Below are positions 8,117-55,116 of a DNA stretch of 64,000 bases, piece after piece. Within the stretch, counting starts at the first letter, position 1, and the number at the start of each line of letters is the position of its first letter. Source of the DNA: Oscillospiraceae bacterium (GTDB taxonomy: Bacteria > Bacillota > Clostridia > Oscillospirales > Oscillospiraceae); assembly GCA_017416685.1 (NCBI GenBank), contig JAFQBN010000005.1:44230-108229 (forward strand), written 5' to 3'. A model generated the notes under the pieces. It was given only the letters and a program-made list of their open reading frames with translations, was not told where the DNA came from and made no database searches. A program made the position numbers and the translations under genes.

Positions 8117-10774
8117 ATGAAGCTTATGGTGCTGGACGGAAACTCCATCGTCAACCGCGCCTTTTACGGCGTCAGCCAGAATTTAACCACCCGGGACGGT
8201 CTGCCCACCAACGCCATCTTCGGGTTTTTGAACATCCTGAATAAGCTTCTGGATGAGGACAAGCCCGATGCCCTGTGCGTCACCTTCGACCGCAAGGCCC
8301 CCACCTTCCGCCATCTGACCTACGAGGGGTACAAGGCCCAGCGCAAAGGCATGCCGGAGGAACTGGCCGCCCAGATGCCCGTGCTGAAGGATGTACTCCA
8401 TGCCATGAACATCCCCACCTATGAACTGGACGGATGGGAGGCGGACGACCTCATCGGCACCATCGCCGCCAAAGACACCGCCGCCGGCTGGCACACCACG
8501 GTAGTTACCGGCGACAAGGACTCCCTCCAGCTCATCACCGACACCACCACCGTCAAGCTGGTGTCCTCCCGCATGGGTCGTACCGAGACCCGGGACATGA
8601 CCCCCGATGCCTTCCGGGAGCAATACGGTTTTGACCCCATCCACATCATCGACCTGAAGGCCCTGATGGGCGATGCCTCGGACAACATCCCCGGTGTCAA
8701 GGGTGTGGGCGAAAAGACCGCCATGGCGCTGATCCAGCGCTACTGCTCTATCGACAATCTGTACGCCGCCATGCCAAACCCGGAGATGGAACCCGGTGTT
8801 CCCGCCAAACCCGGCGTGATCAACAAGCTGGCCGAGGGACAGGAGATGGCCCGCCTTTCTTACGACCTTGCCACCATCCACACCGACGCCCCCATCGACT
8901 TCGATCCCGCCGCCAACCTGCGTAAACCGGCAGACAACGATGCGCTGTACAGTCTGTTCCTGCGGCTGGAGTTTTCCAAGCTCATCGACAAGTATAAGCT
9001 CACCGTCCCCGGCGACCCCGCCCCCGTTTCCGACGGAGTGGATCTGACCTGCTCCTGTGAAGTGGTGGATAGCGATACCCGGGCCATGGAACTGCTGGCG
9101 CAGTATGAGCAGGCGGACTTCGTCGCCTGCCTGCCCCTGCCCACTATGGACGGTCTTTGTGTGTACTGCGGCGGCTGTGCCGCCATCCTGCTTGCAAGCC
9201 GTCTGCCCCGGTACAACGAATTCCTGCGCCGGTTCTTCTCCCCCGCGGTGACCAAGGTGGCCCACGACATCAAACCCATCCTGCGCCGTCTGCTGGAGGA
9301 GGGGCTGTCCACCGACGGTTTTGTGTTTGACACCTGCGTGGCCGCCTATCTCCTGTCCCCCACCGACGGAAGCTACGACTTGGACAAGCTGGCCATGCAC
9401 TACTGCAATCTGCAGCTGCCCGAGGGCGATTTCCTGCATGAGGAGGCCTTCAGCCCCCTGACCGATTTCACCGCCCCGGCGGAGCATTGGACCCGGCACA
9501 CCGCCTTCATCGCCCACCTCTATCCCCTGCTGAAAGACAGACTGACCGAGCTGGGCATGGACAAGCTCTATTGCGGCATCGAACTGCCCCTGTGCATCGT
9601 GCTGGCGGAGATGGAGCAGATCGGTTTCTTTATCGACCGCAGTGCGCTAGCCGACTACGGCACGGCGCTGGCTCAGGGCATCGAGCAGGCCCAGACCGCC
9701 ATCTACGAGCTTGCCGGCGGCGAATTCAACATCAATTCCACGCAGCAGTTGGGCGCTCTGCTCTTTGACACGCTGGGTCTGCCCCCGGTAAAAAAGACCA
9801 AAACCGGCTATTCCACCAACGCCGAGGTGCTGGAAAAACTCCGCGGTCAGCACCCCATCATTGAGCAGATTTTGGACTATCGACAGCTGACCAAGCTGAA
9901 ATCCACTTACGCGGACGGACTTGGTAAAGTAATTATGCCTGACGGTCGTATCCACACCAGTTTCCAAAACACCGTCACCGCCACGGGGCGTCTGTCCTCC
10001 ACCGAGCCCAACCTGCAGAACATCCCCGTCCGCACCCCGCTGGGTGCGCGGCTGCGTGAGATGTTCGTAGCCGGGCCGGGCAAGGTACTGGTAGATGCGG
10101 ACTACTCCCAGATCGAGCTGCGGCTGCTTGCCTGCATGGCAAACGACGCCGCCATGATCAACGGCTTCAACTCCGGCGACGACATCCACACCATCACCGC
10201 AAGTCAGGTCTTTGGCGTGGCTCAGTCCGAGGTCACACCCGATATGCGCCGCAGCGCCAAGGCGGTCAACTTCGGCATCGTGTACGGCATCTCCCCCTTC
10301 TCCCTGTCTCAGGACATCAAGGTGACAGTGGCTCAGGCCAAGGATTACATGGACCGCTACTTCGCCCACTATCCCGGGGTCAAGGCCTATATGGATGCGG
10401 TGGTGGAACAGGCCAAACATGCCGGTTGGGTCGCCACCCTCTTCGGCCGCCGCCGCTGGGTGCCGGAGCTGAAGTCCTCCAACTTTAATATGCGCGCTTT
10501 CGGTGAGCGGGTCGCCCTCAACGCCCCCATTCAGGGTACCGCCGCCGACATCATCAAGCTGGCTATGGTACGGGTCCGTGACCGCCTGCTTTCCGACGGA
10601 CTACAGGGGCGGCTGGTGCTGCAGGTCCATGACGAGCTGATCGTGGAGTGTCCCGAGAACGAAGCCCAGCAGGTCGCCGCCCTGCTGCAGCAGGAGATGG
10701 AAAACGTCGCCCAACTGGCTGTCCCCCTGCTGGCGGACACCCACTGCGGCAAAAGCTGGGCCGACGCCCACTAA
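8117..10774 (+). CDS. polA: DNA polymerase I
   Basis: An 885-residue family A DNA polymerase for Okazaki-fragment processing and repair. It has an N-terminal 5'-3' exonuclease (MLDGNSIVNRAFYG-like start, KALMGDASDNIPGVKGVG helix-hairpin-helix). The polymerase motifs are DADYSQIELR (D662), RRSAKAVNFGIVYGIS and VHDELIVE (H838, D839). The middle proofreading domain keeps VAHDIKP and FDTCVAAYLLSP but lacks the DxE of exo motif I, so 3'-5' exonuclease is probably inactive, as in several Firmicutes. The start at 8117 is set by AAGGAGGT. It is first in an operon with rimI and tsaD. Confidence 0.97.
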   Translation: MKLMVLDGNSIVNRAFYGVSQNLTTRDGLPTNAIFGFLNILNKLLDEDKPDALCVTFDRKAPTFRHLTYEGYKAQRKGMPEELAAQMPVLKDVLHAMNIPTYELDGWEADDLIGTIAAKDTAAGWHTTVVTGDKDSLQLITDTTTVKLVSSRMGRTETRDMTPDAFREQYGFDPIHIIDLKALMGDASDNIPGVKGVGEKTAMALIQRYCSIDNLYAAMPNPEMEPGVPAKPGVINKLAEGQEMARLSYDLATIHTDAPIDFDPAANLRKPADNDALYSLFLRLEFSKLIDKYKLTVPGDPAPVSDGVDLTCSCEVVDSDTRAMELLAQYEQADFVACLPLPTMDGLCVYCGGCAAILLASRLPRYNEFLRRFFSPAVTKVAHDIKPILRRLLEEGLSTDGFVFDTCVAAYLLSPTDGSYDLDKLAMHYCNLQLPEGDFLHEEAFSPLTDFTAPAEHWTRHTAFIAHLYPLLKDRLTELGMDKLYCGIELPLCIVLAEMEQIGFFIDRSALADYGTALAQGIEQAQTAIYELAGGEFNINSTQQLGALLFDTLGLPPVKKTKTGYSTNAEVLEKLRGQHPIIEQILDYRQLTKLKSTYADGLGKVIMPDGRIHTSFQNTVTATGRLSSTEPNLQNIPVRTPLGARLREMFVAGPGKVLVDADYSQIELRLLACMANDAAMINGFNSGDDIHTITASQVFGVAQSEVTPDMRRSAKAVNFGIVYGISPFSLSQDIKVTVAQAKDYMDRYFAHYPGVKAYMDAVVEQAKHAGWVATLFGRRRWVPELKSSNFNMRAFGERVALNAPIQGTAADIIKLAMVRVRDRLLSDGLQGRLVLQVHDELIVECPENEAQQVAALLQQEMENVAQLAVPLLADTHCGKSWADAH

Positions 10775-14548: not shown

Positions 14549-14577
14549 TTGCTACATAGCCCATAATGTGATAAAAT
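14549..14577 (+). promoter_or_regulatory. promoter of the giant HD/NTase/PRTase operon
   Basis: TTGCTA (14549-14554), 17 bases, TAAAAT (14572-14577), 38 bases before the start at 14615. Confidence 0.6.
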
Positions 14578-14614
14578 AATATGATAACAATACCGACCGA
14601 AAGGCGGCGTTACT

Positions 14615-17600
14615 ATGCACGAAAAGCTCATCCAACAACTGACCACCCACACTGCCGAGCGGCTTGCTGCCCGGCGGCTGCCCTTCGCCCCCACCAAACG
14701 GGCGGCCATGGCCCTGCTGCACACCCCTTCGTGGACAGACGGCCTGTCCGCGCTGCTTCCGCTGGAGGGACACCTGTCCTGCCAAACCGTGGTGGAGCTT
14801 TGTTCCGACATCCTGCCCCGCCTGTGCCGTGAGCCGGAAGGCGGCTGGCTTGATTTCTGCTATCGTTACGCCAAAAGCCTGATGTTCCCCGCCGGCAACT
14901 TTGCCCCCGATGCCGAGGAGTACTCCGACGGTGCGAACCTGCTGCTGTGCGCCATGCAGGTGCTGTTTGAATACGAGGGAGAATCTCTGCCCTTTGACAA
15001 TGCCCGTCATTTCCGCTTTTTGAAGGAAGAGCAGTGGCGCAGCTGTGACAACGGTCGGGAATACGGCCGTTTCCTCACCGCCCTGCGGCAGGAGTATGTC
15101 TACGAGCTGATGCGTTTGAGCGAGGAGCTGACCGAGTATGAGACCCTCAGCCATATCGCCGGGGTCCACTATATCGCCATGACCGCCGCCGAGGGGCTGC
15201 GCCGTGCCGGGGTCAGCGTGGACCTGTCTTTGGTGTCCGCTGCCGCCGCATCCCACGATCTGGGCAAGTTTGGCTGCCGCCCCGGTGAGCGGGTACCCCA
15301 CCTGCACTACTATTACACCGACCAGTGGCTGCTGGCCCACCGCATGGAAAATGTCAGTCTCATCGCCTCCAACCACTCCACTTGGGATCTGGAGCTGGAA
15401 GCGCTGTCCGCCGAGTCTCTGTGCCTGATCTACGCCGACTTCCGCGCCCGTCAGACGTCGGACGAAAGCGGCAGACTTATCACCACCCTTATGCCGCTGG
15501 AGCAGGCCTTTCGCGCCGTGCTGACCAAGTTGGAAAATGTGGACGACGCAAAGCTGCGCCGCTACGAATTCGTCTACGGCAAGCTGGTGGATTTTGAGGA
15601 CTACCTGCGCCGGCTGGGTGTGGACGTGGACCTGACCGGCACCCCCGGCACTCCCCTCCCCGCCAAGGACCCCGCCGTTATGACCCCCGACGAGATGGTG
15701 GCTGCTGTCACCACCCTGTCCGTATCCCACAATCTGGAACTGATGCACGCCCTGAGCAGCGAGCGGCAGTTCGGCAATATCATCGAGGCCGCCCGCTCCG
15801 CCAAGGACTGGAAGCAGCTGCGGGCCTATCTGGACGTATTCGAGGAGTACTTCACCTACCTGTCCGCCCGGCAGAAGGAGCAGGCACTGGCCTTCCTCTA
15901 TGAGCTGCTGGTCCACCGGGAGGGCGACATCCGCCGTCAGGCCGGTGCGCTGATGGGTCAGATCATTGCCCGATTCCATCTGGGCTACCGCAAGCAGCTG
16001 CCCGCCGATGCCCCCACCGACCCCGCGGAAGAAGCCCCCTTTGTCCTGTGGGAGAAGTTCCTGAACAAGCTGATCTACCCCGACCACAAGACCACCCAGC
16101 CTCAGCGCGCCCACATCGGCTACACCCTGAAGCTGGTGGTGGCCGCCCTGCTGGAACACTGCCGCGCCGAGGACACCGACCGTTTCGTGGCCGCCCTGCT
16201 GAAGTTCTACACCGACCCGGAGCATATGCAGCCGGACACCGCCTTTACCCTGTTGGATGCCCTTCACGACCTGCCCGCCCACCTGTATGACGAGCAAACC
16301 ACGGACGATCTTATCGAGTTCGCCGCCCACTTCGCCCTGCGCGGCGAACTGCGGCTGAAGGTCGCCGCCCTGCGCTTTTTGCTGACACTCAGCTCTTCCC
16401 TGCCCGATCACGTCCCTGCCGGCCGGCGCATCGCCCAGATCGCCCGCAGCGCGGACCCGGGCAGCGACCTGCCCATGATCTTCCTGCAGTACAAACTGCT
16501 GGAGACCTCCGGTGAGGACACCTCCCGCCACCACGCCCTGCTCCACGAGCGGGACATCACCGGCGAGGTGTTCCTGAACAACCTGAAAACCGCCACCCCC
16601 TGGATCATCAAGTCGCTGAACATCGAGCTGCTGGTGGATCAGGTGGAGCATGGCCGTCACGCCCAAATTCTGCACATTGCCACCCACCTGTCCAATCTGG
16701 TCAAGGTGGCTGAGCGTGTGGTGGTCCGCCACGCCGCCGGCGAGGCGCTGGTGCGCCTGATCCCCCTGCTCAGCCGCGAACAGCGCAACGAAGTTGTGGT
16801 GGAGCTGGGTAAGGGCCTTGAAATGGGCCAGTACGAGATTTCCAAGTACATCCCCGACTATTTGGGCGAGGCCGCCCTGTTCCTCCATCCCAACGAACTG
16901 GACGAGCAGATCACCGGTCTTAAAAAGCTGCTGGGCAGTCCCATGGACAGCGTGGTCTCCGTGGCCCTGTCCACCATCGGCGTGCTGCTGCAGCACTATC
17001 CCGAATATCCCGCCCGCTTCCCCGAGGCCGAGGAGGTCTACGAGACCCGTCGGCAGGATTTGCTGGGCATGCTGCTGCAGGGCCTTGCCCATTACCGCCA
17101 GAGCGTGCGGCAGGAAGCTATGCTGGTCATCGGAAAGTATCTGTTTGAAAGCAGCCTCCTGTCTATGGAGGAAAAGACCCACACCTTTTCCCTCATCTAT
17201 CAGAAACTGCTGTTCCTGCTTCAGGCCGACCCCAACGAGGAGCGGCTGACCTTCTTCTACCGCACCTCTGCCCTGTCCCACATTTATCGTTTCCTGTCCC
17301 TGTACCGGCTGGACCACGGCCCTATGTCCTTCTCCACTCCGGAAAAGGTTGCCTTCTTCCCCGGCACCTTCGACCCCTTTACCCTGTCCCACAAGGGCAT
17401 CGTGCAGGCCATCCGGGATATGGGGTTTGAGGTGTATCTCGCCGTAGACGAATTCTCCTGGTCCAAAAAGGCGCAGCCGCACCTCATTCGCCGACAGATC
17501 GTCAGTATGTCGATCGCGGGCGATTTCCACGTGCATCTGTTCCCGGACAACATTCCGGTAAACCTTGCCAACCCCGCTGATCTGGACCGCCTGCAGCAGG

Positions 17601-19408
17601 TCTTTGCCGGGCGGCAGGTCTATATCGTGGCCGGCGGCGACGTGGTAGCCAACGCCTCGGCTTACAGCGCCGATGCCCGTCCCGGCTCCATCCATCAGCG
17701 CAACCATATCATCTTCCGCCGCTCCGGCGAAAAACAGCCTGATCTGTCCTGCATCACCGGCAATGTCCTGCAGCTGAAGCTGCCCCCCCACCTGCAGGAC
17801 ATCAGCTCCTCCCGCATCCGGGAAAACGTAGATCTGAACCGGGACATTTCCACGTTCATTGACCCCGTCATTCAGGACTTCATCTATCAAAACGGTCTGT
17901 ACCTGCGGGATGCACAGAACAAGGCCGTCCTCAGTCAGGGAGACTTCCATTTCCAATGGGTCGATCAGCCGGACGAGGCACTGCTGGACCGCGCCGTCTC
18001 CATCCACCCGGGCCTTGCCCCCCTGCGCAGCACCATTGTCCGCAGCCGCGACCGGATGCTGCTGCTCCGAGATCTGTCCGACCCGGATAAGCTGTTCGGC
18101 TGGGTCAGTTACCGCACACTGTCCTGCGCCCAGCTGTTTTCCGCCCTGAACGACCCGGAGCTTGCCCAGCGTATCCGCCTGCAGTCGGCCGGCTCTGTGC
18201 TGCTCATCACTGCCATCCACACCGCCGCCGAGCGGCGCTATCAGGACCCTGCCCAACTGCTGCTGAGCGAACTGCTGGCCCGCTGTGTGGAGGTGGACTG
18301 CGCCTATGCACTGTATCATCCCCATATGGGCCATTGCAACGACGAAACCGCCGGCCTGCTGCGGCGTCAGGGGTTCCGTCCCGTGGACGGCCGTTCTGAT
18401 CTGTATCAGGTGGATATGCATGCACCCATCGTCCTCATTCAGAATCTGGAAACCACTATTCAGCAGCCTTTGGCTCAGAATCCCCGGGTGCTGCGCACCC
18501 TGCGCCGCTGCCATGAACGGCTGCAGCTGGCCATTGCCGGGCTGTACCCCGGCAGTCTGGTGCTGACCCTGTCCTCCGACGTGATCCATCACCGCCTGCT
18601 GGAAAAGATCACCGCCATCAACAACGTACCCATCACCCCCACCGTTCCCCGAACTCTGGGCGAGTGCATGTGCGTTCCCTTCGGCAAGCTCCTGCGCAGC
18701 AAGGTAGTCCCCAACACGGTGACCAAGACCCTCCACACCGACAAGGTGTTCGAACCCGATCTGCGCACCAATACCATCGAGGCCTTCCCCAACTACTCTC
18801 CCATCCCCACCCAGATACGCACCATCAAGTCCTTCGACCGCCCGGTCATTCTGGTGGATGACCTGATGCATCCCGGCAACCGCATCCGGGCGCTGGATCC
18901 CCTGCTGCAGCAGGAAAAGATCGACGTCAAGACCGTGCTGGTGGGTGTGCTGTCCGGCTACGGACGGGATCTGATGCAGCTGCGCGGCCGTCCGGTGGAC
19001 AGCGTGTATTTCGTTCCCCGCATGCGCCGATGGTTTGTGGAGTCTACCCTCTATCCTTTCATCGGCGGCGATACTGTCCGCCGTCCTGCGGCCCCTGTAC
19101 CCGGCCTGCTGCCCGGAATCAATCACATTCTGCCCTACGCCCGCCCCACCTTCCACAGCGAATGCTCCGACGAGACCATCTTCGATCTGTCCCGCTGCTG
19201 TTTGGAAAACGCCCGGGCCGTAATGCAGGTGCTGGAGGCTGAGTACCGCAACCTGTACGCCCGCAACCTGACTTTGGGCCGCCTGCCCGAGGCGGTCATT
19301 CTGCCCCTGTGTCCCGACAAGGGCAGCTGCGTGTCCTACGACCCCAATCTGGCCGCATCGGTCTATCTGGAAAACGATTTGGAACTGCTGATGCGCGCCC
19401 ACTCCTGA
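14615..19408 (+). CDS. 1597-residue fusion: HD, helical repeat, nucleotidyltransferase, GNAT-like and phosphoribosyltransferase domains
   Basis: One uninterrupted frame. Seen in order: an HD-hydrolase-like domain around residues 130-300 with the H214-D215 pair (SHDLGKFG) and later HSTWDLE; an alpha-helical HEAT-like stretch about 340-890; a nucleotidyltransferase domain about 910-1090 beginning FFPGTFDPFTLSHKG (T/HxGH-type core, H926) with an ISSSRIRE-like loop (DISSSRIRENV); a GNAT-like part about 1110-1290 (LLRRQGFRPV); and a type I phosphoribosyltransferase domain about 1300-1597 with PRPP loop VILVDDLMHPGNR (1411-1423). The pairing of PRTase and nucleotidyltransferase recalls NAD-type nucleotide synthesis or salvage, but no substrate can be assigned. 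It leads a three-gene operon with two likely nucleotide-cofactor proteins. Confidence 0.85.
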   Translation: MHEKLIQQLTTHTAERLAARRLPFAPTKRAAMALLHTPSWTDGLSALLPLEGHLSCQTVVELCSDILPRLCREPEGGWLDFCYRYAKSLMFPAGNFAPDAEEYSDGANLLLCAMQVLFEYEGESLPFDNARHFRFLKEEQWRSCDNGREYGRFLTALRQEYVYELMRLSEELTEYETLSHIAGVHYIAMTAAEGLRRAGVSVDLSLVSAAAASHDLGKFGCRPGERVPHLHYYYTDQWLLAHRMENVSLIASNHSTWDLELEALSAESLCLIYADFRARQTSDESGRLITTLMPLEQAFRAVLTKLENVDDAKLRRYEFVYGKLVDFEDYLRRLGVDVDLTGTPGTPLPAKDPAVMTPDEMVAAVTTLSVSHNLELMHALSSERQFGNIIEAARSAKDWKQLRAYLDVFEEYFTYLSARQKEQALAFLYELLVHREGDIRRQAGALMGQIIARFHLGYRKQLPADAPTDPAEEAPFVLWEKFLNKLIYPDHKTTQPQRAHIGYTLKLVVAALLEHCRAEDTDRFVAALLKFYTDPEHMQPDTAFTLLDALHDLPAHLYDEQTTDDLIEFAAHFALRGELRLKVAALRFLLTLSSSLPDHVPAGRRIAQIARSADPGSDLPMIFLQYKLLETSGEDTSRHHALLHERDITGEVFLNNLKTATPWIIKSLNIELLVDQVEHGRHAQILHIATHLSNLVKVAERVVVRHAAGEALVRLIPLLSREQRNEVVVELGKGLEMGQYEISKYIPDYLGEAALFLHPNELDEQITGLKKLLGSPMDSVVSVALSTIGVLLQHYPEYPARFPEAEEVYETRRQDLLGMLLQGLAHYRQSVRQEAMLVIGKYLFESSLLSMEEKTHTFSLIYQKLLFLLQADPNEERLTFFYRTSALSHIYRFLSLYRLDHGPMSFSTPEKVAFFPGTFDPFTLSHKGIVQAIRDMGFEVYLAVDEFSWSKKAQPHLIRRQIVSMSIAGDFHVHLFPDNIPVNLANPADLDRLQQVFAGRQVYIVAGGDVVANASAYSADARPGSIHQRNHIIFRRSGEKQPDLSCITGNVLQLKLPPHLQDISSSRIRENVDLNRDISTFIDPVIQDFIYQNGLYLRDAQNKAVLSQGDFHFQWVDQPDEALLDRAVSIHPGLAPLRSTIVRSRDRMLLLRDLSDPDKLFGWVSYRTLSCAQLFSALNDPELAQRIRLQSAGSVLLITAIHTAAERRYQDPAQLLLSELLARCVEVDCAYALYHPHMGHCNDETAGLLRRQGFRPVDGRSDLYQVDMHAPIVLIQNLETTIQQPLAQNPRVLRTLRRCHERLQLAIAGLYPGSLVLTLSSDVIHHRLLEKITAINNVPITPTVPRTLGECMCVPFGKLLRSKVVPNTVTKTLHTDKVFEPDLRTNTIEAFPNYSPIPTQIRTIKSFDRPVILVDDLMHPGNRIRALDPLLQQEKIDVKTVLVGVLSGYGRDLMQLRGRPVDSVYFVPRMRRWFVESTLYPFIGGDTVRRPAAPVPGLLPGINHILPYARPTFHSECSDETIFDLSRCCLENARAVMQVLEAEYRNLYARNLTLGRLPEAVILPLCPDKGSCVSYDPNLAASVYLENDLELLMRAHS

Positions 19409-19424
19409 CCGGAGGTGACCCCGC

Positions 19425-20657
19425 TTGTATTATTACCGATATCAAGACAGCGCCCTCGCCTCTTTTGAGCCGCTGGACGGCTTTGTCTCCGCTCCGCCCC
19501 CGGCAGATGGCCAACTGTTCGTTGCCGTCCATGGCGACAGCGTACTGGGTCGCGGCAGCTTTCGGGTCGACCACCCCGGTCAGCTCACAGACCCCCACAG
19601 TCTGAACGTACTGGACGCCTCCCGCCTGTCTCAAACAGAACCGGACGGTCCCGTTTCTGCCGCATTGGCGCGGGGACAGCTGACGGCGGTCAATGTGGAC
19701 CGCCCCTGCTGGCAGACACGTTTGACTGCACCCACCCCCGGCAAAAAGCGGGTCAACATTCTTGCCATCGGTGATGTAGGCTCTACCCTGCTGACCGGCC
19801 TGAAGCTGATGGGCGGCGATGTCATCTCCTCCATCGGCATCTGCGACCTGTCCGACCGGATCACCGCCCGGTGGGAGTTCGAGATGGGGCAGATCGCCCT
19901 GCCCTGGGAATACGATGCCATGCCCGAGGTGGAGGTGGTCTCACCTGAAAACCTGTTTGACTGCGACGTGTTCGTTTTCGTGGCCTCCAGGGGTATCCCG
20001 CCCGTCGGCTCCGACATCAAAGATGTTCGGATGTACCAGTTTGAGAACAACGCCAAAATCGTGGCCCATTATGCCAGGCTGGCCCGAAACGCCAACTTCC
20101 GCGGTCTGTGGTGCGCCGTGTCCGACCCGGTTGACCCCCTTGCCAAGACCGCCTATCTGGAAAGCAACCGGGACGAAGACGGCAACTGGGACGGCAGGGG
20201 CCTCCTGCCCGAACAGGTTCAGGGGTACGGTCTGGGCGTGATGAATGCCCGGGCGGCCTACTACGCCAAGCGGGACGGGCGCTTTGCATCCTTCCTCACC
20301 GAAGGCCGCACCTTTGGCCCCCACGGCACCGGTCTGACCGTGGCCAACTCCGTTGAACACTACGACGAGGCGCTGTCCCGGGAGCTGACCGAGCTGACCG
20401 TCACCGCCAACCTGAAAATGCGTGAGATCGGCTTCAAACCCTATGTGGCGCCTGCTCTGTCCTCTGGGGCCTTGTCCATCCTGCTGACTCTGCGTGGTCA
20501 GTGGCACTGCGGCTCGGTATTTCTGGACGGCATCTATATGGGTGTGAAGAACCGCTACACCCCCTACGGCATCGAAACTGAACTGCTGCCCCGCATCCCC
20601 GACCCGCTCTTTGAGCATATTACCGCTGCGGCAGAGCATTTGAAGCAAATTCTGTAA
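19425..20657 (+). CDS. lactate/malate-dehydrogenase-like NAD(P)-binding protein
   Basis: A 410-residue protein. The first ~105 residues form an unrecognised domain; then a Rossmann start (ILAIGDVGSTLLTGLKLMG) and an acidic strand end (ICDLSD) suggest dinucleotide binding. Later segments (VFVFVASRGIPPVGSDI, WCAVSDPVDPLAK) resemble the lactate/malate dehydrogenase family, but the usual catalytic R-x-x-x-H arrangement is not clear. The start is a TTG at 19425, chosen because GGAGGTGACC lies just before it and no ATG is near. It is 16 bases after the giant gene and 6-15 bases before the next gene. Substrate unknown; could be a sensor rather than an enzyme. Confidence 0.75.
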   Translation: MYYYRYQDSALASFEPLDGFVSAPPPADGQLFVAVHGDSVLGRGSFRVDHPGQLTDPHSLNVLDASRLSQTEPDGPVSAALARGQLTAVNVDRPCWQTRLTAPTPGKKRVNILAIGDVGSTLLTGLKLMGGDVISSIGICDLSDRITARWEFEMGQIALPWEYDAMPEVEVVSPENLFDCDVFVFVASRGIPPVGSDIKDVRMYQFENNAKIVAHYARLARNANFRGLWCAVSDPVDPLAKTAYLESNRDEDGNWDGRGLLPEQVQGYGLGVMNARAAYYAKRDGRFASFLTEGRTFGPHGTGLTVANSVEHYDEALSRELTELTVTANLKMREIGFKPYVAPALSSGALSILLTLRGQWHCGSVFLDGIYMGVKNRYTPYGIETELLPRIPDPLFEHITAAAEHLKQIL

Positions 20658-20672
20658 AGGCAGGTGAGCTCC

Positions 20673-21725
20673 TTGTCCCTGACTGTCATTTATCCCAAAC
20701 TTGCGGGCAGCTGTTCCCGGCTGGACGGGGTGCTGACCCATGCTTTGGCCGACGTTCCCCACCGTATCATCGACAACATGGAGCGGCTGGGTGACCTGAG
20801 CGGACAGCATCTGCTGTTCGCCGTCCCTGTGGGTAAATTCGGCATCAACCCCGCTTATCAACAGCTGCTGCTTGCCCTGCGGCAGGACACCGGCCTGCTG
20901 GCCGGCTGCACTGCCGGTCTCATTGTGGATGGGGAAAGCGAGCTGTACACCAAGTCCGCCGCCACCGAACTGACCCTTGCCGCCAATCGATCCGGCTGCG
21001 CCTTTGTTGGCCGTCCGCTGGTGGAGGGGACCGGTTCTCTGACCAACCTCCGTGTGCAGGCGGACAACCTCGGCTGCACCTTGGAGCAAAGCTATCACAC
21101 CGCCGCCCGGGAACTGGTCCGGCGACTTTTGTCCTTCACCCTCCCCAAAAAGGATCGGCCCGAAGTGCTGGTACTGCACGCCTCCAGCCACCACATTTCC
21201 AACACGCTGGATCTGTGGGACTCGGTTGCGCAGCGGCTTGCAGGTCGCTGCACCGTTACCGAGATCGGTCTGCGCAACGGCACGGTGTTCGACTGCTCCG
21301 GCTGTCCTTACACCATGTGCCTGCACTTTGGCGAGCAGGGCGGCTGCTTCTACGGCAGCGTCATGCAGGACGAGGTGTACCCCGCCGTCCGCCGGGCGGA
21401 CGCCATCGTGATGGTATGCCCCAACTATAACGACGCCATCTCCGCCAACCTGACCGCCTTTGTCAACCGGCTGACCGCCCTGTTCCGTCAGACCCGTTTC
21501 TACGACAAAGCTCTGTTTGCCATTGTCGTTTCCGGCTACTCCGGCGGCGACATCGTGGCCCGGCAGCTCATCGGCGGTCTGAACATGAACAAATCCTTCC
21601 ACTTACCCGGCAACTTCGCCCTCATCGAAACGGCCAATGCCCCCGGTGAAGCCCTGCGCCTGCCCGGCATTGATGCCCGGCTGGACGGCTTTTCCAAAAC
21701 AATTCTGCATGCGTTGTGCGAATAA
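20673..21725 (+). CDS. flavodoxin-fold NAD(P)H-dependent oxidoreductase-like protein
   Basis: About 350 residues. The C-terminal half resembles NADPH-dependent FMN reductases: VLVLHASSHH strand-loop, a cysteine cluster CSGCPYTMC with GGCFYGSVMQDEVYPAVRRADAIVMVCPNY, and FAIVVSGYSGGD. The N-terminal half (about 1-170) is unassigned. Two starts are possible: GTG at 20664 and TTG at 20673; the TTG is preferred because AGGTGA stands at normal distance, as in the gene before. A strong terminator follows the stop by a few bases. It is the last gene of the giant-protein operon. Confidence 0.75.
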   Translation: MSLTVIYPKLAGSCSRLDGVLTHALADVPHRIIDNMERLGDLSGQHLLFAVPVGKFGINPAYQQLLLALRQDTGLLAGCTAGLIVDGESELYTKSAATELTLAANRSGCAFVGRPLVEGTGSLTNLRVQADNLGCTLEQSYHTAARELVRRLLSFTLPKKDRPEVLVLHASSHHISNTLDLWDSVAQRLAGRCTVTEIGLRNGTVFDCSGCPYTMCLHFGEQGGCFYGSVMQDEVYPAVRRADAIVMVCPNYNDAISANLTAFVNRLTALFRQTRFYDKALFAIVVSGYSGGDIVARQLIGGLNMNKSFHLPGNFALIETANAPGEALRLPGIDARLDGFSKTILHALCE

Positions 21726-21766
21726 AAAAACACCCCGACACCATAGTGTCGGGGTGTTTTTTATCT
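21723..21766. terminator. bidirectional terminator of the giant operon
   Basis: Long near-perfect stem (about 16 pairs, CACCCCGACAC / GTGTCGGGGTG core) with A and T tracts on both flanks, between converging genes ending at 21725 and 21770. Confidence 0.92.
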
Positions 21767-22292: not shown

Positions 22293-22793
22293 TCAGTTAC
22301 CCTTCCTTTCCTGCATCTGCTTTACGCGTGCATTTACATCGTCAATAATTTCCCGGGGGACAAAGTCGGTCAGATCCGCTCCGTACCGGGCCAGCTCCTT
22401 CACCACAGTGGAGCTGAGATAGGTGTATTTTTCGCTGGAGGCAAGGAACATGGTCTCCAGCTCGGGATTCAGCTTTCGGTTGGTGACCGCCATCTGCACT
22501 TCCTGTTCAAAGTCGGACACGGCCCGCAGACCCTTGACCACCACGTGGGCGCCACGACGTTTGGCGTAGGCTGCCAGCAGTTCATCAGAGAAGTCGATCT
22601 CCACATTTGGGAAACGCGCGGTGGCGCGGCGCAGCATATCCACCCGCTCGTCCGGGGTAAACATTCCCTGCTTTCCGGAGTTGATCATCACGCAGACGAT
22701 CACTCTGTCGAAGCAGCGGCTGGCCCGCTTGATAATATTCAGGTGACCCAGTGTCACCGGGTCAAAGCTGCCGGGATAGATGGCAATGCTCAT
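22293..22793 (-). CDS. coaD: phosphopantetheine adenylyltransferase
   Basis: A 166-residue enzyme that adds AMP to 4'-phosphopantetheine, the penultimate step of coenzyme A synthesis. Hallmarks: YPGSFDPVTLGHLNII (T/HxGH), KGLRAVSDFEQE, and the ISSTxVR-like loop YLSSTVVKEL. Its start overlaps the rsmD stop by 4 bases (ATGA). CoA synthesis is also represented by coaX near 46 kb. Confidence 0.96.
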   Translation of the reverse strand: MSIAIYPGSFDPVTLGHLNIIKRASRCFDRVIVCVMINSGKQGMFTPDERVDMLRRATARFPNVEIDFSDELLAAYAKRRGAHVVVKGLRAVSDFEQEVQMAVTNRKLNPELETMFLASSEKYTYLSSTVVKELARYGADLTDFVPREIIDDVNARVKQMQERKGN

Positions 22794-52377: not shown

Positions 52378-53760
<1,383 letters not shown>

Positions 53761-53772
53761 GGGGGCTGCCCG

Positions 53773-55116
53773 ATGAACGAGTATGTTGCCCGCGTTCAGG
53801 CAAACCTGAAACGCCTTTATGCCCACGAGCCGGAGTATCTCCAGTCTGTGCTGACCTGGCTGGAGCTGATCGAACCCGCCGTGGACGACCCCCGGTACGA
53901 GCAGATGGACCTGCTCAGCCGCATGGTGGAGCCGGAGCGTATGTTCACCTTCCTGGTCCCCTGGGTGGATGACAATGGCGTGGCCCACACCAACCACGGT
54001 TTCCGCGCCCAGTTCAACAGCGCCATCGGCCCCTACAAGGGCGGTCTGCGCTTCCATCCCAGTGTCAATCCTTCCGTGGTGAAGTTTCTGGGTTTCGAGC
54101 AGACCTATAAAAACGCCCTGACCGGCCTGCCCATCGGCGGTGCCGGCGGCGGTGCCGACTTTGATCCCCGCGGCAGGAGCAACCGCGAGATCATGCGCTT
54201 CTGCCAGAGCTTTATGACTGCCATGTACCGCTATATCGGCGCGGACACCGACGTACCCGCCGGCGACATCGGCGTGGGCGCCCGGGAGATCGGCTATCTG
54301 TACGGCGCCTATAAGCACCTGTCCGGCCGGGCTCAGAGCAGCGCCCTGACCGGCAAAGGTCTGACCTACGGTGGCAGCCTTGTGCGTATCGAAGCCGCCG
54401 GCTACGGCGCGGTCTACTTCCTGGACCGTATGCTGGCCCATCAGAACGACACCATGCAGGGCAAGCGCATCGCCATTTCCGGTTTCGGCAATATGTCCTG
54501 GGGCGTGTGCCGCAAGGTGGCCCAGCTGGGCGGCAAGGTGGTCACCCTGTCCGGTCCCGACGGCTATATCTACGACCCCGACGGCATCACCACCCAGGAG
54601 AAGTTCGACTTCATGGTGCAGATGCGCCTGAGCGGTCAGGACAAGGTTCAGGCTTACGCCGACAAATTCGGCGTGGAGTTCCACGCCGGCAAGCGCCCCT
54701 GGGAAGTTCCCGTGGACGTGGTCATGCCCTGCGCCACCCAGAACGAGCTGGACGTGGAGGATGCAGTGCGCATCCTGGCCAATGATGTGAAGTACTATGT
54801 GGAGGCATCCAACATGCCCGCCACGGCCGAGGCGCTGAAGCTGCTGCGCCTGAGTCCCAAGATCCTCACGGCCGGCGCCAAGGCCTCCGGTTCCGGCGGC
54901 GTGGTGGTGTCCGCCCTGGAGATGGCCCAGAACAGTGTGCGCTACAGCTGGACCCACGAGGAAGTGGAGCAGCGCCTGCGCGACATCATGAATTCCATCT
55001 ACGATGCCTCTGCCGCTGCCGCGGAGCAGTACGGCCTTGGCTACGATCTGATCGCCGGCAACGACATCGCCGCCTTCAAGCGTATCGCTCAGGCCATGCT
55101 GGCTCAGGGACTGTAA
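53773..55116 (+). CDS. glutamate dehydrogenase paralog lacking the catalytic lysine
   Basis: A 447-residue protein clearly homologous to the gene before it: [36 protein letters not shown] and a Rossmann core (AISGFGNMSWG) are all kept. The catalytic-lysine motif reads GGAGGGADFDP, so the residue aligned to K129 of the first protein is G125. The frame has no stop and the protein is otherwise well conserved, so it is not a simple pseudogene. It may be a non-catalytic regulatory subunit, or act on another substrate; both are inferences. The ATG is 12 bases after gdhA with no promoter, so the pair is co-transcribed. Confidence 0.92.
   Translation: MNEYVARVQANLKRLYAHEPEYLQSVLTWLELIEPAVDDPRYEQMDLLSRMVEPERMFTFLVPWVDDNGVAHTNHGFRAQFNSAIGPYKGGLRFHPSVNPSVVKFLGFEQTYKNALTGLPIGGAGGGADFDPRGRSNREIMRFCQSFMTAMYRYIGADTDVPAGDIGVGAREIGYLYGAYKHLSGRAQSSALTGKGLTYGGSLVRIEAAGYGAVYFLDRMLAHQNDTMQGKRIAISGFGNMSWGVCRKVAQLGGKVVTLSGPDGYIYDPDGITTQEKFDFMVQMRLSGQDKVQAYADKFGVEFHAGKRPWEVPVDVVMPCATQNELDVEDAVRILANDVKYYVEASNMPATAEALKLLRLSPKILTAGAKASGSGGVVVSALEMAQNSVRYSWTHEEVEQRLRDIMNSIYDASAAAAEQYGLGYDLIAGNDIAAFKRIAQAMLAQGL

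Follow-up and report, generated by a model that had tools for sequence, protein, structure and literature searches.

A three-gene operon that is conserved in many gut bacteria, and that is probably linked to nitrogen metabolism, was characterized at positions 14615-21725 of a 64,000-nucleotide stretch of Oscillospiraceae DNA (hereafter the window; contig positions 44230-108229 in a source genome of 1.86 Mb that is 98.9% complete). The genes, called g1, g2, and g3 here, all lie on the + strand and encode a 1597-residue fusion of HD, HEAT, NadD-like nucleotidyltransferase, GNAT-fold, and phosphoribosyltransferase (PRTase)-like parts (g1, 14615-19408), a 410-residue NAD-binding protein of the lactate/malate dehydrogenase (LDH/MDH) superfamily (g2, 19425-20657), and a 353-residue protein with an FMN reductase/flavodoxin domain (g3, 20664-21725). 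In related genomes the operon recurs beside genes of glutamate and glutamine use, and it might be an accessory module of this nitrogen metabolism in which g1 acts as a bifunctional switch, a reading that is put forward tentatively and weighed below against a close rival.

Operon linkage and glutamate/glutamine neighbors

Linkage was assessed in 161 loci (L032-L111, L127, L130, L168, and L213-L290). Some of these are duplicates of one stretch (e.g., L096 and L263) and were collapsed when loci were placed in 44 lineages by grouping g1 at at least 70% identity; neighboring genes were called by codon score. Downstream of g1 and on the same strand, g2 was present in 132/143 testable loci (39/41 lineages), with a g1-g2 gap of no more than 100 nt in 99 of the 132, and g3 in 117/134 testable loci (35/38 lineages). 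Four misses (L244, L247, L263, and L096) stem from overlapping starts of open reading frames (ORFs) and are not true losses. An initial annotation of this DNA had described a three-ORF operon led by a 1597-residue fusion; its coordinates proved exact, with codirectional ORFs separated by only 16 nt (g1-g2) and 6 nt (g2-g3) and an RBS-like GGAGGTGA ahead of g2, and the three genes do stay together in relatives.

Neighboring gene families were counted across the same loci and lineages without preselection. Among 814 families, 754 occurred in one lineage, 48 in two, eight in three, three in four, and one in seven. The most recurrent neighbor, in 7/44 lineages, was glutamate dehydrogenase (GDH). 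CTP synthase, type III glutamine synthetase (GSIII), and a TRAP permease each recurred in four lineages; the families found in three include AsnB and a YcbB-type response regulator with its sensor kinase. Names were checked on one or a few examples for GDH, GSIII, a glutamine synthetase, AsnB, PyrG, PurF, CarA, and GltS, and likewise for the YcbB-type regulator and for two TRAP-cluster proteins, NMT1-like and DctM. Of the 44 lineages, 12 (22/161 loci) had one or more of the nitrogen families tested. A link to glutamate or glutamine genes had been absent from the initial annotation.

The position of GDH relative to g1 varies. A tandem GDH pair is divergent from g1 at 456 bp in L213, a GDH is divergent at 308 bp in L102, and in L214-L216 GDH lies codirectionally upstream at 152-167 bp (all distances taken between alignment ends), while in L062, L075, L076, L084, L086, L090, and L265 it is found 2.7-8.8 kb downstream on either strand. 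Because these arrangements differ, and because some g1-adjacent GDHs are closer to the first and others to the second of the two GDH types of the window, GDH was likely joined to g1 several separate times. Larger groupings are found as well: the gene order is GSIII-AsnB-g1-g2-g3-GlnA-ANTAR in L254 and GSIII-PurF-PyrG-g1-g2-g3 in L255, and in L076 carA-(carB, identified by eye)-pyrG lies some way upstream of g1, with a sensor kinase, YcbB-type regulator, and GDH downstream.

Domains and active sites of the three proteins

The domains of g1 were assigned from Pfam (E ≤ 0.1), profile comparison, and an AlphaFold2 (AF2) model built as two halves (residues 1-902, pLDDT 91.4; residues 903-1597, pLDDT 88.2). 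In the window protein, CTP_transf_like was matched at E 9.8e-5, above its cut-off, and HD (E 0.003) and HEAT (0.062) were both below theirs. Across 29 diverse homologues, CTP_transf_like was found in 29/29 (best 2.5e-10), HD in 14/29 (best 3.3e-5), HEAT in 13/29, and Pribosyltran in 4/29 (best 6.9e-4). The chain begins with the HD domain (residues 141-345; 15035-15649) and a HEAT/ARM solenoid (residues 346-902; 15650-17320), both with approximate limits, and continues with the NadD-like nucleotidyltransferase (residues 910-1097; 17342-17905; FFPGTFDPFTLSHK ... ISSSRIR), the GNAT fold (residues 1109-1268; 17939-18418), and the PRTase-like domain (residues 1269-1597; 18419-19405), which carries the PRPP (phosphoribosyl pyrophosphate)-loop variant VILVDDLMHPGNR and a conserved loop VPNTVTKTLHTDK; all are encoded on the + strand. 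The solenoid is helical in the AF2 model and agrees with Foldseek and with Pfam HEAT. Since the 50 Foldseek matches listed for the N-terminal half were mostly HEAT/ARM-type proteins, the HD call rests on Pfam and invariant residues. In the structure search with the C-terminal half, the nucleotidyltransferase fold was closest to NadD; NadD and GNAT matches fill that list, so the lack of PRTase matches in it carries no meaning. Profile comparison of the C-terminal part with three PRTase groups gave 18-44%, as compared to no more than 1.4% when the remaining domains of g1 were used. Of the five domains initially proposed, the HD, helical middle, nucleotidyltransferase, and GNAT-fold parts were upheld by these profile and structure searches, and the PRTase only moderately so.

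The motifs of g1 were compared across 29 sequences reaching down to 32% identity. The HD residues H180, H214, D215, H231, H254, and D275 are invariant, as are F914, P916, G917, F919-F922, H926, K951, S1064, S1065, I1068, and R1069 of the nucleotidyltransferase, in which both ATP motifs of the NadD fold are present. Because these residues are invariant over such a distance, the HD and nucleotidyltransferase sites look functional. Tyr1017 is also invariant, and we take it to be the aromatic residue at the position of the NadD base-stacking Trp. In the same domain, residues 1025-1031 read SIHxxNH, with His1031 invariant and His1027 nearly so; we know of no such His pair in NadD, and the stretch is a possible mark of substrate specificity. 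Mean column identity was 0.73 for the nucleotidyltransferase, 0.69 for the HD domain, 0.66 for the PRTase part, and 0.42 for the GNAT part, which together with the N-terminus is the least conserved portion of g1.

The two remaining domains depart from the motifs expected at their ligand sites. PRPP loops of type I PRTases consist of an acidic pair followed by Thr-Gly-x-Thr. The PRPP loop claimed in the initial annotation is present as DDLxHxGxR, with its acidic pair (97% and 93%) and Gly (90%) conserved, but the usual Thr-Gly-x-Thr is not: it reads x-Gly-x-Arg, one Thr position being variable and the other Arg. This part may nevertheless bind PRPP or a nucleotide. Likewise, the AF2 model bears out the GNAT fold but not a recognizable acetyl-CoA loop, for which the motif is Q/R-x-x-G-x-G/A; no conserved Gly was found in residues 1203-1217 of the 29 sequences. 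Owing to the missing Gly-rich loop and the low conservation, the GNAT part probably does not work as an acetyltransferase. A split g1 in L209 (G645, a one-contig genome) was considered as two natural genes and rejected, being a frameshifted stretch; g2 at that locus also looks truncated.

The nucleotidyltransferase and PRTase-like domains have known counterparts from which they depart. The nucleotidyltransferase shares its fold and ATP motifs with NadD and VPA0413 (PDB 3h05) but has Thr-x-Ser-His where NadD usually has His/Thr-x-Gly-His. The fusion PRK07152 joins NadD to an HD part; in g1 the HD domain lies at the opposite end, more than 600 residues away. As compared to type I PRTases, the acidic pair and Gly of the loop are kept at about 90% or more and the profile similarity is weak but specific, yet the loop Thr residues are replaced and Pfam detects only four of the 29 members.

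The identities initially given to g2, a dehydrogenase relative, and g3, a flavodoxin-fold reductase, were confirmed, and each protein of the operon adopts a fold of a nucleotide- or flavin-binding kind. Ldh_1_N was matched in 22/25 g2 homologues (best 5.6e-9); the window protein itself falls below the Pfam cut-off for LDH/MDH, and profile comparison with the PDB aligned it to LDH structures at E 5e-7. As in L-lactate/malate dehydrogenases, the NAD-binding half of g2 has a NAD-type Rossmann motif, its invariant Asp141 aligns with the LDH strand-2 Asp, and one substrate-type Arg, Arg202, aligns with the LDH 'TR(L)' Arg. By motif reading, we take His300 to be the catalytic His and Arg276 the second substrate Arg. 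Unlike these dehydrogenases, g2 has an additional N-terminal stretch of ∼100 residues and presumably Met273 at the position of the catalytic Asp, a motif reading from a region to which the profile alignment does not extend. g3 matched FMN_red at E 8.1e-19 and resembles iron-sulfur flavoproteins and FMN reductases in this domain and in four conserved Cys residues (211, 214, 219, and 228) that do not vary among 25 sequences. It differs from them in the Cys spacing, C-x2-C-x4-C-x8-C, and in an N-terminal domain of ∼150 residues that has no Pfam match. The four Cys residues may form an Fe-S site, and g3 may carry an Fe-S cluster.

Distribution and local features of the operon

When each GTDB species was represented by a single genome, 477 stretches contained a g1 relative at tblastn E ≤ 1e-3, found via two nucleotidyltransferase peptides; the best 80 of the 477 were examined, and the rest may include ordinary nucleotidyltransferases. 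Full or split matches were counted as carriers and short NadD-type matches were excluded, by which 3/5 matching genomes in the order, 65/81 in the family, and 8/35 in the phylum were accepted (own genome included). g1 was present in 23/24 congeneric relatives besides its own genome, in two of these in pieces at contig ends; the congeneric relative from which it was missing is 87% complete. It was found in 0/15 genomes of other families, in 65/400 genomes of the family, and, own genome included, in 3/295 of the order (single-sequence query) and 8/398 of the phylum. The closest named relative is an Oscillospiraceae metagenome-assembled genome (MAG) from goat caecum (L032), at 94% identity.

Full-length g1 relatives occur in Bacillota and in MAGs labelled Chloroflexota. 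In a quick tree, the copies from L063, L065, L067, and L072, MAGs labelled Anaerolineaceae/Chloroflexota, group with an SH-aLRT of 100 inside the Oscillospiraceae copies. Provided that the MAGs are labelled correctly, this nesting implies transfer between phyla; mis-binned contigs are the alternative. One record in a plasmid collection, a 2.6-Mb replicon of Acetoanaerobium noterae, encodes relatives of g1 (34% identity), g2 (48%), and g3 (29%) in the same order. In viral contigs, only two matches to the nucleotidyltransferase motif of g1 were found, of 31 and 62 residues. The operon is probably horizontally mobile.

Within the window, a promoter-like site (TTGCTA-17-TAAAAT; 14549-14577, + strand) lies upstream of g1; it comes from a consensus scan only, which gave seven matches in the region versus a mean of 2.6 in shuffles. 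At the end of the operon, a bidirectional terminator-like hairpin with T/A runs (AACACCCCGACACCATAGTGTCGGGGTGTTTTTT; ∼21726-21764) was read by eye and was not listed by a pattern scan. A riboswitch scan upstream of g1, covering 31 loci at the gathering threshold and the window stretch, found none directed at g1. An antisense ORF of 1616 residues (14552-19402, - strand) spans g1 and is presumably spurious, arising from codon use. Another nucleotidyltransferase that belongs to the superfamily of the g1 domain, CoaD-like by eye (22293-22793, - strand), is located 0.6 kb past the end of the operon and adjoins an RsmD-like gene; the pair looks like ordinary housekeeping synteny.

The two GDH genes of the window stand in tandem 33 kb after g1 (52408-53760 and 53773-55116, + strand), are only loosely linked to it, and are related to the L213 pair. 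The second has GGAGGG instead of GGGKGG, with the loss of what we take to be the catalytic-motif Lys, and keeps the two Lys residues that we take to belong to the substrate site. Its L213 relative, with GGASGG, likewise keeps these two residues, and the second GDH is probably a conserved inactive paralogue.

Possible functions of the operon

The switch reading of g1 is favored by the pattern of conservation, as the nucleotidyltransferase and HD motifs are kept, in contrast to the acetyl-CoA loop of the GNAT part. A g1 that works by nucleotidyl transfer and HD hydrolysis is tentatively preferred, and we infer the AMP transfer and its acceptor, which way the switch works, the sensing by individual domains, and the parts of g2 and g3 as follows. 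The NadD-like domain would move AMP from ATP to an acceptor, which could be a mononucleotide or else a partner protein. The HD domain would remove the nucleotide again or hydrolyze the product. Docking of partners would fall to the HEAT solenoid, and ligand binding or sensing to the GNAT-fold and PRTase-like domains, with PRPP as the obvious candidate. g2 (NAD-binding, LDH-like) and g3 (FMN, maybe Fe-S) would supply a redox or 2-oxoacid input. In its most far-reaching form, which is rather doubtful, this proposal describes a hitherto undescribed system by which anaerobic Clostridia (and Chloroflexota) control nitrogen use. g1 would attach and remove a nucleotide mark, or synthesize and degrade a nucleotide messenger, as a signal of the status of PRPP, NAD(H), and 2-oxoacid/glutamine, and would in this way tune GDH and glutamine-using enzymes via folds unrelated to PII, GlnD, or GlnE.

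GlnD is the PII uridylyltransferase/uridylyl-removing enzyme and modifies PII according to glutamine status. It is a precedent for such a pairing, as it combines a transferase and an HD domain in one nitrogen-control protein (PMC4285133); g1 is likewise a large single chain with both. Unlike GlnD, however, the g1 nucleotidyltransferase is NadD-like, the HD domain comes first rather than after the transferase, and HEAT, GNAT, and PRTase parts are added. None of GlnD, NTP_transf_2, or ACT is among the 20 families matched by any of the 29 g1 members at E ≤ 0.1. Because the nucleotidyltransferase fold differs and ACT is missing, the likeness is one of analogy only and not of homology. Each g1 domain is known, but the g1 architecture and the operon are undescribed in the open-access literature searched, including the consulted portions of PMC8473912 and PMC4285133, with subscription literature mostly outside the search.

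The link of g1-g2-g3 to nitrogen metabolism, which we consider probable, is also seen in genome-level counts. At least two matches to PF02812 (Glu/Leu/Phe/Val dehydrogenase) were found in 36/65 g1 carriers versus 32/335 non-carriers (Fisher p 1.7e-15, not corrected for kinship), and in 13 genera with both carriers and non-carriers, the carriers' mean was higher in eight, equal in four, and lower in one; the window's own genome has three matches. Several observations weigh against the link and the switch. PF02812 is not specific for GDH, and when genomes without it were dropped, carriers were higher in six genera, equal in four, and lower in one, with two not comparable. The chance of finding GDH in 7/44 lineages, 9e-7 at an assumed 1.5 copies per 2.5 Mb and 8e-5 at 3 copies, takes no account of choosing the best family. 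None of the nitrogen families tested was found in 32/44 lineages (139/161 loci), many of which have short flanks. The window's own g1 adjoins no nitrogen gene, with GDH 33 kb away, and no nitrogen neighbor was recognized by eye in Acetoanaerobium L168. At some loci (e.g., L221, L223, L224, L231, and L268) both g2 and g3 went undetected next to g1, and the PRTase identity of the g1 C-terminal part is moderately supported.

Nearly as likely as the nitrogen switch, and itself tentative, is a metabolic pathway in which the PRTase-like domain would convert PRPP and a base into a ribonucleotide, the NadD-like domain would couple AMP to it, and the HD domain would recycle it, to yield an NAD-like dinucleotide or nucleotide metabolite for g2 and g3. 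That the operon makes, salvages, or destroys a cofactor derived from a nucleotide, as the initial annotation suggested, is possible. NAD is assembled in this order, by a PRTase and then an adenylyltransferase, and the NadD-like fold with its invariant aromatic Tyr1017, as well as the NAD-type Rossmann motif and LDH-aligned Asp141 of g2, are consistent with such a route, which would also need PRPP and nitrogen. It fits less well with the absence of Thr-Gly-x-Thr from the PRPP loop, does not directly account for the nitrogen neighborhood, and would supplement an NAD supply already covered by the genome's NadD. A role for g1 in ordinary NAD synthesis, as a further nicotinate/nicotinamide mononucleotide (NaMN/NMN) adenylyltransferase whose other domains are accessory, would explain its NadD profile and fold matches but is unlikely: it scores 24.5 bits against the NadD equivalog PRK00071.1-3 (cut-off 150) and 21.5 bits against TIGR00482 (cut-off 112.45), and its architecture, patchy spread, and neighbors do not fit. 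Because a separate orthodox NadD is encoded in the same genome (136 bits, above cut-off), g1 is not its sole NaMN adenylyltransferase; a NadD motif search in L169 gave no match.

Two further explanations are very improbable. The module could serve 2-hydroxyacid chemistry via LarA-type racemases and their nickel-pincer nucleotide, which is made from nicotinate adenine dinucleotide. g2 is LDH-like; in Oscillibacter L093 a LarA-superfamily gene (8491-9780; best 178.9 bits, equivalog cut-off 500 not reached) is found ∼137 bp upstream of g1, and in the Copromonas MAG L098 (3196-5514) larB/larC, above their cut-offs, lie ∼4.5-7 kb upstream. This explanation is largely refuted by the missing association of LarB, which was found in 38/65 carriers versus 168/335 others (odds ratio 1.4, p 0.23) and had no match in the window's own genome. 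An anti-phage or stress defense system with a nucleotide signal, raised in the initial annotation, would suit the pairing of nucleotidyltransferase and HD domains, a theme of signal-based systems, and the patchy family with Chloroflexota-labelled members nested in Bacillota fits transfer. However, none of the three proteins matched a PADLOC family or PHROG at E ≤ 0.1, no defense gene was recognized by eye among the 12 neighbor families found in at least three lineages, and g1 is near-universal in the window's genus; a phage search with g2 gave no match. A parallel to the 'Ter' nucleoside-like metabolite was set aside, with no PRTase_2 or TRSP among the families matched by the 29 g1 members.

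Glutamate and glutamine use is central to amino-acid-fermenting gut anaerobes, and its regulation in Clostridia, in the absence of a GlnD/GlnE cascade, is to our knowledge poorly understood. The present module, which is conserved, apparently transferable, and repeatedly found next to GDH, glutamine synthetase, AsnB, and PyrG, is a concrete and testable candidate for such a role. Should the cofactor pathway prove true instead, it would point toward an NAD-like molecule that is not yet known. By either reading, g1 represents a widespread protein family of ∼1600 residues that retains several intact active-site motifs and for which searches have found no function.

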